IMG/VR virus record: IMGVR_UViG_3300036770_001972 | Coordinates: 38,229-102,228 of that record | DNA length: 64,000 bases | Origin: a virus | Direction: 5' to 3' (one strand) | Shown: in pieces, positions 30,336 through 38,548 of the stretch | How the letters are laid out: every line of letters starts with the position of its first letter | How positions within the stretch are numbered: position 1 is the stretch's first letter | Position numbers and translations under genes: made by a program | Notes under the pieces: model-generated | Database searches by the model: none | The model's input: only the letters and a program-made list of their open reading frames with translations | What the model was told of the DNA's origin: nothing

Positions 30336-31043
30336 ATGTCACTTGCAGGAATTATTGCTTCAACACCCAAGCATCACACAACTCTTCCCGTCAGCGGAAA
30401 GAAGATCGAATACCGACCCTTCATCGTCAAAGAGGAAAAGATCCTTCTCATGGCGGCAGAAAGCAAGGACGAGAAGACGATCAACGCGGCTATCCGCGAA
30501 GTCATCTCCGCTTGCACAAACGGTGCTGTTGATGTCTTCAAGTTGCCGTTGGTGGACATGGAATACCTGTTCCTGCAACTGCGTAGCCAATCTGTCGGTG
30601 AGACCGCAAAGCCGAATGTCAAGTGTTCGAAGTGCGAGTTGCCGAATGAGGTCGAAATCAACCTGAAGGAAATCCACCCCACGAACGATCCGAATCACAA
30701 GAAGATCATCCCCATCGTGGGCGACATCAGCGTGGTTATGAAGTATCCCACCGTCGATGACCTGAAGGACATCGATTCGCAAAGTGACATAGACAAGGCA
30801 CTCACCCTGTTAGTGAAGTCTATCGACAAGGTCTATCAGGGTGAGAAGATCTTCAATGCATCCGAAATGGATCCAAAGGAAGTCCGTGGATTCATCGAAG
30901 AGATGACACAAGAACAGTTCAAGAAACTCTTCTCCTTCGTGGAAACGATGCCAAAGTTGGAGAAGCAAATTCAATTCAAGTGCAAGCATTGTGGTCATGA
31001 GAACAACTCAACTCTGAAGGGGATCACAAGTTTTTTCTCCTAG
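30336..31043 (+). CDS. gp26: Baseplate hub / tail assembly protein gp26
   Basis: The 235-residue protein begins MSLAGIIASTPKHHTTLPVS and has EYRPFIVKEEKILLMAAESK, the T4 gp26 (T4_baseplate) family core. Two Cys pairs, C97/C100 (CSKC) and C216/C219 (CKHC), could form one zinc site. GGAG lies 6 nt before the ATG. At its 3' end the reading frame passes through a T TTT TTC slippery heptamer (31031-31037) two codons before the TAG. A -1 shift there would extend it by 64 residues. The gene directly precedes the tape measure, the usual position of frameshifted tail assembly chaperones. Confidence 0.88.
   Translation: MSLAGIIASTPKHHTTLPVSGKKIEYRPFIVKEEKILLMAAESKDEKTINAAIREVISACTNGAVDVFKLPLVDMEYLFLQLRSQSVGETAKPNVKCSKCELPNEVEINLKEIHPTNDPNHKKIIPIVGDISVVMKYPTVDDLKDIDSQSDIDKALTLLVKSIDKVYQGEKIFNASEMDPKEVRGFIEEMTQEQFKKLFSFVETMPKLEKQIQFKCKHCGHENNSTLKGITSFFS
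31017..31043 (+). promoter_or_regulatory. Programmed -1 frameshift site
   Basis: AAGGGGA (31017-31023), a Shine-Dalgarno-like string, lies 7 nt before the canonical slippery heptamer T TTT TTC (31031-31037), followed by TCC TAG. This layout resembles the stimulator spacing of the E. coli dnaX site. No strong downstream stem was seen by eye. Confidence 0.7.
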
Positions 31044-31231
31044 CCTCCACCCATGACAACTTGTTCAACATGCTCTCCGTGAACTTTGCGATGATGCAGA
31101 ACTTCAACTATACGCTAGTTGATTTAGAGAGCATGATGCCATGGGAGCGGAGGGTCTACATCGATTTGTTGATGCAACACTTGAAGGAAGAGAAGGAGAG
31201 AATGGAGTCTTTGAAGAGCCAAAGACAGTAA
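31037..31231 (+). CDS. gp26 -1 frameshift extension (64 residues)
   Basis: After slippage at 31031-31037 the -1 frame reads LLASTHDNLFNMLSVNFAMM and later TLVDLESMMPWERRVYIDLL and MQHLKEEKERM, stopping at TAA 31229-31231. The pattern 'NYxLxxLExMxPxERxxYxxLLMxxLKEEK' resembles a small protein found after gp26 in T4-like phages. The frame opens after a TGA at 30998 and has no in-frame ATG preceded by a good ribosome-binding site (first ATG at 31070). It is therefore most likely made as a gp26 fusion of 298 residues. A separately started short protein from an internal ATG is the alternative. Confidence 0.7.
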   Translation, partial: LLASTHDNLFNMLSVNFAMMQNFNYTLVDLESMMPWERRVYIDLLMQHLKEEKERMESLKSQRQ

Positions 31232-31242
31232 AGGGCAGATAG

Positions 31243-33993
31243 ATGGCAGAACCAACACAGGGCAATCCAACACCACCGAACAACCAAGATGGTATTGTGG
31301 CACCATCAGCCGATGCTAACAAGGCATTGGATCAGTTCTTTGCTGAGATGGAAGCCCTGAAGAAGTTGGTCGAAAAGTCCAACGACACTCTGGCCAAGAG
31401 AAAAGATCTTGAAGAAAAACTCTTGGATGTCTCTGTAAAACTTCATAAAGCAGACGAGCAGAAGAAAAAGGACTCGGATGCTCTATACAAAGCCCACAAG
31501 AAGTACATTGATGAGCAGGGCAACTGGGTAAAGGGTTCTGAGGCAATCCGCGAAAAGTATGAAAACGATCTACTCAAGATCAACGCGGGGTATGTCGCGG
31601 CAGTTGAAGAAATCAATGCCGTAACTTCTGCTTTGGAGGACAACAAGAAGGCAATGGATGACGAGAAGGATGCCCGAATGTCGGCTCTTTTCTCTCTTCG
31701 TGATTTCCGAGACACGGTGAAAGAAACCGATGCATCGATTGGTGCTGAGATGTCCAAGTCTTTGGGCGAGGCAACCAAGATGGTTGTAGCCACCAATGCT
31801 GCTATTGAGATCGAAGCAAAGAAGATTTCAAGTGAACTTCAAAGCAAGACAAACGCAGTATTTGGAGAAATGGCACAGTCACTCAAGGAGGCAAACCTGA
31901 CCAAAGCCGCAGAAGAAGCGGCAAGTGCGTTGGAGGAAGCCGCAGAAAAGGCTAAAGAGGCTGCTGAAAAAGAAAAGAAGGCATCCGAAGAAGCAGCAAA
32001 GGCTGCTGCCGAAGAACTTGCTGAGAAGAAAAAACTCAGAGCGTCAATCAAAGAGTACGAAAGAACCCAAACTGCCGAAGACTTTGGAAAGAGTCTAGAG
32101 GCACAGGGCGGTCTTGTCGGTCTCGGGACAATCAAAGATCAGATCGATGAGATCGCTAAGGCCGAGGATGATCGATTCAAGGCATACAATCCCAATGCGA
32201 CGAAAGAAGAGATTGCGACGAATCGTGAGAAATTCTTGATGACGCAGAAGGATGTCATTCTCAAGAGGATCGAAATCCAACAGCAAAAAGACTTGGAGAA
32301 GGTGCGCCAAGAGAGAATCAAGAAGATCATCGAAGAGAAGAAGGTATCTGAGGCGACCGCTGCAAAACTAGCAGACACAAAAGAAAACAGAGAAGCCGAT
32401 GCAAAGATGATCGATGGTCAGGAAAAGGTCATTCAATCATTGCAGCGATTGGAAGGTCATGAGATCCGAATGATCGATAGGATGGATAGAGACTCCATCA
32501 AAGATGCCGAGCGAGAAGCAGAAGCATACAACAAAACCCCACCATGGGCACAAAATTTCGTTGATGGAATTGAGAGTCTTAAGGGAGCCATGGGAGACAT
32601 GTTCAAGAAAGAAGACGGTTGGTTCAAAACCATTCTTCTTATCTTGACTGTTGCTGTCGGCGCAGTTCTTGGTTACATTTGGACGAAGATCCAATTCATC
32701 GTTTCTCTTCTCACCATGCTTCCGTTTGGAATCGGAAAGGCTCTTGGTTCCGTCTTTGGTGGTATTGGCAAGGGCGCAGCGGGTCTGTTTGGCGGTGTGG
32801 CAAAAATCTTTGAGCCATTCACAAGAGGATTGGGTTCCATTCTCAAGATGTTCCCTGGAGTTTCGGGAAGCCTCGGTCAATTTGGTAAGGCTTTCAGTTT
32901 TGGATTCAAGGTACTTGGCAAGTTCTTCTTCTATATCCAGTTGGCAATCGATGCCATTTGGGGTGCATATAAGGGATTCCAACAGTTGGGCAACATCAAG
33001 GGTCTCATCATGGGTGCCCTTGCTCAAATCATCAGCGGTCTCACCTTTGGCTTGCTCGACTTCCAAAGCATCTTCGACTTCTTCAACACCACGATGGGCG
33101 GTGTGTTTGATGGAATCGCGGGTGTGTTTGAACCATTGATCGAATACTTCTCCACCGTCTATAAGAACTTCACAGATGCGTTCTCTCGTATATTTGCGAT
33201 ATTCCAAGGAGAGGGATCAATCTTCAGCAAGATCTTCAAGGTAATTCAGGTGGGAGTAACTACGATGGTCAAGAATGCCATCGCCTCTGTTACGGCCTTA
33301 ATCAAAACTGCTGCTAATCTGTTCATTGTTCTTCCCTTTAAGATCGGTGAATTCATTGGCAATATGCTCGTCAAGTTGGCAGAATTGACATATGACGCTT
33401 TCATGTCTCTATGGGATTGGATTGCAAGCGGTCAGATACTTGCGGATGTTGTGAACTTTGGTTCATGGCTTTATGACGAACTGATTGGTTTCTTTGCGGG
33501 AATCATCAATGCTATTGCCGATGGGTTGGGCGAAATACCAATCGTTGGCGGTTATATCAAGGAAGCATTGGGTGGTGGATCGGGTGGTGACGGACTGCAA
33601 GTTGCGGTCGAAAAGAGTGCCGAAGTTGTAAAGGAAGCACAAGAAAGTACAACTGCTGTGGCATCGACCGCAAACAGCATGGCACAATCGGGTGCCGTCC
33701 AATTTGCACAAACTCCTGTTACTCCGATTGCCACCCCTAGTGGGAAGGTACAGTTCGCGCCCATGGCGGCACCTTCCTACAATGCGAATGTGGTCAATAC
33801 GGCGACCAACAACACATCCACCGCAAAGATGAATGCGATGAACAATGGTGGAACCGCAGTCGTGAACACACCGACCACGAACAACATCGTCAATGGTGGT
33901 GGTGGCGAAAGCAATGTGTTGATGCCAACGAACAACAGGAACACAGAACCAACGCTCCGTGCCCTGCTATTCCAAGAGTGTCCTGCCCTATAA
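31243..33993 (+). CDS. gp29: Tail tape measure / hub protein, gp29-like
   Basis: The 916-residue protein has the layout of tape measures: a long coiled-coil N-terminal half (about residues 20-430, with EEAAEKAKEAAEKEKKASEE), then a hydrophobic stretch from about 460 to 780 with several membrane-like helices (ILLILTVAVGAVLGYIWTKI, GKALGSVFGGIGKGAAGLFG), and a low-complexity Asn/Thr/Gly C-terminus. T4 gp29 (590 residues) sets tail length and is part of the hub. The gene lies directly after gp26 and its frameshift extension, with AAGGG before the ATG. The extra length may reflect a longer tail. Confidence 0.85.
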   Translation: MAEPTQGNPTPPNNQDGIVAPSADANKALDQFFAEMEALKKLVEKSNDTLAKRKDLEEKLLDVSVKLHKADEQKKKDSDALYKAHKKYIDEQGNWVKGSEAIREKYENDLLKINAGYVAAVEEINAVTSALEDNKKAMDDEKDARMSALFSLRDFRDTVKETDASIGAEMSKSLGEATKMVVATNAAIEIEAKKISSELQSKTNAVFGEMAQSLKEANLTKAAEEAASALEEAAEKAKEAAEKEKKASEEAAKAAAEELAEKKKLRASIKEYERTQTAEDFGKSLEAQGGLVGLGTIKDQIDEIAKAEDDRFKAYNPNATKEEIATNREKFLMTQKDVILKRIEIQQQKDLEKVRQERIKKIIEEKKVSEATAAKLADTKENREADAKMIDGQEKVIQSLQRLEGHEIRMIDRMDRDSIKDAEREAEAYNKTPPWAQNFVDGIESLKGAMGDMFKKEDGWFKTILLILTVAVGAVLGYIWTKIQFIVSLLTMLPFGIGKALGSVFGGIGKGAAGLFGGVAKIFEPFTRGLGSILKMFPGVSGSLGQFGKAFSFGFKVLGKFFFYIQLAIDAIWGAYKGFQQLGNIKGLIMGALAQIISGLTFGLLDFQSIFDFFNTTMGGVFDGIAGVFEPLIEYFSTVYKNFTDAFSRIFAIFQGEGSIFSKIFKVIQVGVTTMVKNAIASVTALIKTAANLFIVLPFKIGEFIGNMLVKLAELTYDAFMSLWDWIASGQILADVVNFGSWLYDELIGFFAGIINAIADGLGEIPIVGGYIKEALGGGSGGDGLQVAVEKSAEVVKEAQESTTAVASTANSMAQSGAVQFAQTPVTPIATPSGKVQFAPMAAPSYNANVVNTATNNTSTAKMNAMNNGGTAVVNTPTTNNIVNGGGGESNVLMPTNNRNTEPTLRALLFQECPAL

Positions 33994-38001: not shown

Positions 38002-38548
38002 GAGCATACCGCGCAAGGAAGTACGAGTCAACTATGTCTGAGACAGGACTTCCACAGTCCTTGCTCTCCTTATCCATGGACTTCATGAGATCGATTCCCG
38101 TCTGATCCCTGAAAGCCGCATGCATGATGCACTTGTCTGCGTTGCCCTTTCCTGCCGCGAACTTCTTCAAGGCTGTCGGTGCAACGGTTTCAAATCGAAT
38201 CCCGCTCTTCCATAACTTGTGCTTGAGCATCCCGCAGTTCTCTCCGATATGAAAGACCTTTCCCTTAGCCCCCATTGCATAGTCCTCTATGACGAGAGCG
38301 TCAGCATCGACTCTGCACTTGGAGACAGCCCATTCAGAAATGAGATCGTATCTTTGCTCGGGACAGAGGTAGTCGGGGTAGACATCCCCGACACATGTCA
38401 GCATTCCAAAAGTATGCATGACCTGATTGCGCTTGACCGATGTGAGAAACCAACAAGTGGCTGTCTCTCCGTCAATCAGAGTGATTGCGGGTGAGGTCAT
38501 GGAGTAGTCAATACCTAAGACTTTCACACAAGTATCTATTGCTTCCAT
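37979..38548 (-). CDS. RuvC-like Holliday junction resolvase
   Basis: The 189-residue protein has the RNase H-fold acidic residues of RuvC-type resolvases: D14 in VLGIDYSMTSPA, E88 in ALVIEDYAMGAKG, and D171/D174 in VSDIVDSYFLARYA. The segment HIGENCGMLKHKL and PTALKKFAAGKGNADK match phage RuvC-like nucleases. It would cut branched DNA in recombination and packaging, a job done by endonuclease VII (gp49) in T4; no gp49-type gene was seen here. Its promoter is not obvious. Confidence 0.85.
   Translation of the reverse strand: MEAIDTCVKVLGIDYSMTSPAITLIDGETATCWFLTSVKRNQVMHTFGMLTCVGDVYPDYLCPEQRYDLISEWAVSKCRVDADALVIEDYAMGAKGKVFHIGENCGMLKHKLWKSGIRFETVAPTALKKFAAGKGNADKCIMHAAFRDQTGIDLMKSMDKESKDCGSPVSDIVDSYFLARYALRKQPQH

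Follow-up and report, generated by a model that had tools for sequence, protein, structure and literature searches.

A predicted programmed -1 frameshift at the end of the gp26-like tail chaperone gene in an uncultured T4-like virus

The gp26-like gene of the virus record IMGVR_UViG_3300036770_001972 ends in a run of T residues, and an open frame shifted by -1 continues past its stop codon almost to the next gene. Is this second frame a separate small gene, or is it the C-terminal part of a longer gp26 product that is made by ribosomal frameshifting? We analyzed this locus in a stretch of 64,000 nucleotides (positions 38,229 to 102,228 of the record; referred to here as the window) and in related phages. 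We conclude that the locus very probably encodes a pair of tail assembly chaperones, predicted to be made by programmed -1 ribosomal frameshifting. A preliminary description had proposed that gp26 is the counterpart of lambda gpG/gpG-T in this way. Conservation, selection and colinearity with T4 make that the best-supported reading.

Anatomy of the locus and its proteins

The locus contains the following features, all on the plus strand.

30336 to 31043, +: gp26-like tail assembly chaperone, short form (TAC-N), 235 aa, with two CxxC pairs (PF12322, phrog_150)
31017 to 31023, +: internal Shine-Dalgarno-like candidate stimulator AAGGGGA (pairing with the anti-Shine-Dalgarno above synonymous nulls)
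31031 to 31037, +: putative -1 slippery heptamer T TTT TTC (from the sequence; kept across relatives)
31041 to 31043, +: gp26 stop codon TAG, one codon (TCC) after the heptamer
31037 to 31231, +: -1 frame extension (TAC-C), 64 codons and TAA, predicted to be reached by frameshift (phrog_634, coding pattern, no SD-led start)
31243 to 33993, +: probable tape measure protein gene, 916 aa, presumed chaperone client (position, weak phrog_1535 match)

Within positions 31000-31060 the gp26 frame reads ...CTG AAG GGG ATC ACA AGT TTT TTC TCC TAG. The preliminary description had reported the heptamer near the end of gp26, AAGGGGA 7 nt upstream of it, a 64-residue -1 frame and a 298-residue fusion, and we reproduced each of these from the sequence. 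The 7-nt spacer is TCACAAG. The -1 frame is already open upstream of the heptamer and remains so up to the TAA at 31229-31231. Translated from 31037, it gives the 64 aa LLASTHDNLFNMLSVNFAMMQNFNYTLVDLESMMPWERRVYIDLLMQHLKEEKERMESLKSQRQ. The predicted fusion (TAC-NC) is 298 aa long and would contain the peptide ...GITSFFLLASTHD... over the frameshift junction.

The gp26-like protein matched PF12322 (T4_baseplate; E 3e-60) and phrog_150 (baseplate hub; E 1e-59). Its gene is the single PF12322 copy on the 102-kb record, which may be a fragment. The extension matched phrog_634, "baseplate hub assembly catalyst" (gp51), with an E value of 1e-19, and also the C-terminal end of long phrog_150 members. 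It had been described earlier as a conserved-looking pattern; the pattern is not an orphan one, as it belongs to the known small gp51 family. The top matches of the extension among solved structures were HIV gp41 C-helices, which we took as chance matches to the WERE-like stretch. The chaperone gene sits directly before the gene starting at 31243, whose 916-aa product weakly matched the tail length tape measure protein family phrog_1535 (E 0.001). From its position and this weak match, 31243-33993 is a probable tape measure gene.

The heptamer is in an unusual place for this DNA. Among 51 non-overlapping open reading frames in the window (20,199 codons), T TTT TTN occurred in phase twice. There were 65 in-phase heptamers of the general form X XXY YYZ, and only the one in gp26 was within 3 codons of a stop. 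The frame beyond it has the pattern of coding sequence. Between the extensions of nine clade relatives, differences at codon positions 1, 2 and 3 of the -1 frame numbered 459, 116 and 910, which indicates that the extension codes in that frame.

Conservation of the slip site and its stimulator

We found that the heptamer is kept across distant relatives. In phage and IMG/VR collections we found 246 loci that have gp26 together with the extension, and clustering gp26 at 80% identity gave 130 clusters (<80% identity between them). By tblastn, the extension had matches in 561 phage records; no cultured phage among these matches had an extension at least 60% identical to that of the window. An alignment of the heptamer and the extension across relatives had been proposed as a check. 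The extension was in the -1 frame relative to gp26 in all 246 loci, and T TTT TTN, in one and the same phase, preceded the gp26 stop in 129 of the 130 clusters, including clusters from Pelagibacter, Methylophilales, Vibrio, Sinorhizobium and Nitratidesulfovibrio phages. The last base of the heptamer was C in 80 clusters, T in 38, A in 9 and G in 2. The stop followed after 0 or 1 codon in 122 of the 129. Five clusters (L193, L002, L200, L190 and L214) had the stop 8-9 codons past an unchanged heptamer and thus a longer tail on the short form.

This conservation extends to synonymous sites. The first Phe codon was TTT in every one of the 129 clusters (log10 P -25 against each locus's own codon use), and the preceding codon always ended in T (log10 P -18). 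These P values are uncorrected for phylogeny, and the clusters are not fully independent; with 35 clusters at <60% identity, the corresponding values were -6.2 and -5.3. The second heptamer codon was Leu (TTA or TTG) in 11 clusters, so it is the run of bases that is kept and not Phe-Phe. Based on these results, the heptamer is under selection at synonymous sites.

We found that the upstream Shine-Dalgarno-like element is also under selection. Predicted pairing with the anti-Shine-Dalgarno across relatives peaked 9-16 nt before the heptamer, with a mean of about -6.4 kcal/mol, and was approximately 0 beside the peak. Compared to synonymous randomisation, the pairing had a z of -9.4 (53 clusters) and -12.7 (129 clusters). 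A conserved (K/E/R)-Gly pair accounts for part of this signal, and the remainder exceeds the synonymous expectation. Pairing of the window's AAGGGGA was -7.9 kcal/mol, a value reached by 2.3% of synonymous versions.

The dnaX frameshift has an SD-like stimulator just upstream of its heptamer. As in E. coli dnaX, an SD-like element precedes the heptamer in the window, at a distance of about 10 nt, and is a candidate stimulator by its position. Unlike dnaX, an unrelated gene, the window's clade showed no downstream stem-loop. RNAalifold found no consensus structure downstream of the heptamer in 53 clusters. Averaged over relatives, the first 60 nt downstream folded more stably than synonymous shuffles, with z between about -2 and -6 in 36-nt windows. 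This excess was confined to other lineages, with hairpins in some cyanophages; in the window's clade there was no stable downstream hairpin, and folding z values were mostly near or above 0. We therefore dropped a downstream RNA stimulator for the window locus, and take its set of stimulators to be the SD-like element only.

Several cyanophage lineages had a hairpin of the type CCCUC...GAGGG approximately 6 nt past the heptamer, with a sequence that differed between lineages (L003, L132, L122, L001, L120 and L121; at roughly +13 to +38 relative to the heptamer).

Start of the extension and alternative explanations

If the extension were a separate small gene (gp51), translated from its own start or by a restart after gp26, there would be no need for a frameshift. 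Small free gp51 genes are indeed annotated in many cyanophage records. We found that the extension has no usable start, in agreement with the earlier statement that it has no good separate one. The first ATG of the window extension, at 31070, is residue 11, inside the domain, and has no SD. The first ATG in most relatives is at residue 18 or 19, within the conserved domain and past the block (I/L)ALSHDSLENYYKTNFAL. SD energy at the first extension ATG averaged 0.0 kcal/mol, compared to -3.6 kcal/mol where the next genes start. The extension of L167 contains no ATG, and that of the Nitratidesulfovibrio phage contains no ATG, GTG or TTG. The extension is conserved from the slip site onwards, upstream of these ATGs.

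A restart has some support in a few relatives. L127, L165, L169, L173 and L258 have the heptamer and also an ATG in the -1 frame that overlaps the gp26 stop (TAATG or TGATG), and L171, L256 and L257 have such an overlap as well; reinitiation could therefore contribute there. However, a separate gene leaves unexplained both the kept phase of the heptamer and the placement of the SD-like element at the slip site. We consider a separate gp51 gene very improbable as the explanation for this locus.

The three loci L171:3929-4049, L256:2938-3061 and L257:2938-3061, which are Ackermannviridae-type (phages Pseudomonas Cygsa01, Vibrio 1.244 and Vibrio K469), have the TAATG overlap in place of T TTT TTN at the gp26 end. 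Serratia phage 3M (L259:2938-3061), also Ackermannviridae-type, has neither the heptamer nor an early start codon (CAGGTTTTCATC TGATC), and conservation of its extension begins at the gp26 stop.

The long form might instead come from slippage of RNA polymerase on the T run. Runs of 7 or 8 T, present in 38 of the 129 clusters (7 in 20 clusters and 8 in 18), would suit this mechanism. In the other 91, the window's among them, the run is only 6 T. Six T is short for polymerase slippage. The run starts at a third codon base in every one of the 129 clusters, a constant phase that transcriptional slippage would not need, and the selection on the SD-like element also argues against it. Because of the run length and the fixed phase, we regard transcriptional slippage as very unlikely, slightly more so than a separate gene. 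An indel from sequencing or assembly that split one gene in two at the T run has nothing specific in its favor beyond the fact that a 1-nt homopolymer error would give such a picture in a single genome, and the repetition of the arrangement in 246 contigs and in cultured phages makes the chance of it negligible.

Programmed -1 ribosomal frameshifting is thus the explanation that we favor; it draws directly on the anatomy of the locus, its conservation, the selection on its signals, the lack of a usable start and the colinearity with T4 gp51. Most ribosomes would stop at the TAG at 31041 and make the 235-aa short form (gp26, TAC-N). In a minority, AAGGGGA would be paired to the anti-Shine-Dalgarno of 16S rRNA, and the two tRNAs would slip from TTT-TTC back to TTT-TTT. 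The slipped ribosomes would read the -1 frame to 31231, which yields the long form of 298 aa (TAC-NC). On the model of the lambda gpG/gpGT pair, the product of the neighboring probable tape measure gene would be coated by a large number of short and a small number of long copies, the C-terminal helical domain of the long form may recruit the tail tube subunit, and both forms would presumably be gone before the virion is finished. We infer the occurrence of slippage, its low efficiency, and the tape measure and tube partners.

Comparison with T4 and other known systems

T4 and Aeromonas phages 25 and SW69-9 offer a natural comparison. In these phages gp26 is short and gp51 is long, each a gene of its own, and gp51 carries a gp26-like domain and an extension domain in one frame. 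T4 gp26 and T4 gp51 both matched PF12322, and the C-terminus of T4 gp51 matched phrog_634, the same family as the window extension. We built a profile from conceptual frameshift fusions, with T4-type sequences left out. T4-type gp51 aligned to this profile as one domain that crossed the Phe-Phe junction ungapped, and T4 gp26 aligned to it up to the last residues of gp26. The gapless alignment supports both the position of the shift and its product. T4 gp51 is thus a natural fusion of the two domains in one frame, and T4 gp26 is its short paralogue. Like T4, the window has PF12322 in gp26 and a C-terminal domain that T4 gp51 carries in frame; unlike T4, which has two genes and no slippery site, it has one gene with a predicted frameshift.

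AlphaFold2 models of gp26 and of a gp51-type fusion were confident, with pLDDT values of 89.3 and 89.7, respectively, and in the fusion model the C-terminus formed an additional small helical domain. Among PDB structures, the HK97 tail assembly chaperone (2ob9_A) matched the gp26 model with the highest probability, a weak match (probability 0.54, E 1.2) with a TM score of 0.50 by target. A fold search with the gp51-type model gave no match, and a sequence search of solved structures with gp26 gave nothing credible.

The abstract of a 2022 Virology paper (566:9-15) by Vladimirov, Gautam and Davidson reportedly names T4 genes 26 and 51. According to two later articles that cite it, poly-T -1 sites occur in the TAC-N genes of T4-like phages, and in some of these phages the short gene and a long, fused one are separate (PMC12846349, PMC10885494). 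Going by these articles, the frameshifted chaperone in T4-like phages is already described (Vladimirov, Gautam and Davidson 2022), and the window is a well-supported further example of a known system. It shares with those chaperones the gp26/gp51 family and a poly-T site ending the short gene. It differs in that its 102-kb record is uncultured and distant from cultured members, and its clade lacks the downstream hairpin present in some cyanophages. The earlier remark that T4-type phages are usually not cited as examples agrees with a 2016 review, according to which long-tailed phages "except T4" share a conserved G-T frameshift (PMC5009743). That statement explains the remark, which no longer holds after the 2022 description.

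Like lambda G/GT (Xu, Hendrix, Duda; reviewed in PMC5009743), the window has a -1 heptamer near the end of the chaperone gene, before the probable tape measure gene, and would have short and long products. Unlike in lambda, its predicted slip site is TTTTTTC, its short form carries CxxC pairs, and it has an internal SD-like element; we claim no sequence relation between the two.

T4 gp26 and gp51 have been listed as hub assembly chaperones, and gp51 is essential, absent from the virion, and judged to be catalytic from old dominance tests (PMC3004832). This long-unexplained protein fits a long chaperone form, as proposed in 2022. The window extends the chaperone frameshift, as predicted here, to an uncultured T4-like lineage in which the signals are under measurable selection at the level of bases.

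More tentatively, a near-universal cassette (internal SD and T TTT TTN at fixed spacing, with a stop usually 0-1 codon later) might drive the frameshift outside the T4 group proper. In lineages without the heptamer, its place would have been taken by a duplication that gave separate genes for short and fused proteins (T4) or by a stop-overlapping ATG, with two proteins in place of the long form (Ackermannviridae-type). We consider this general scheme possible, if somewhat doubtful. The cassette statistics and the ATG-overlap route may be uncatalogued so far.

A 2010 comparison described cyanophage gp51 as approximately 20% of the length of T4 gp51 and aligning with its C-terminus (PMC3037559). 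Our results support re-annotation of many cyanophage gp26/gp51 pairs as a single frameshifted gene (561 phage records match the extension). In public records the extension is either a free gp51 that starts inside the conserved domain or is unannotated (L001:3005-3188, L002:3055-3189, L003:3055-3189 and L168:4058-4201); these look like annotation errors. The S-RSM4 gene that follows the extension, in the tape measure position (L003:3189-6185), carries the annotation 2OG-Fe(II) oxygenase, and its product had endolysin and metallo-endopeptidase family matches in addition to weak tape measure matches.
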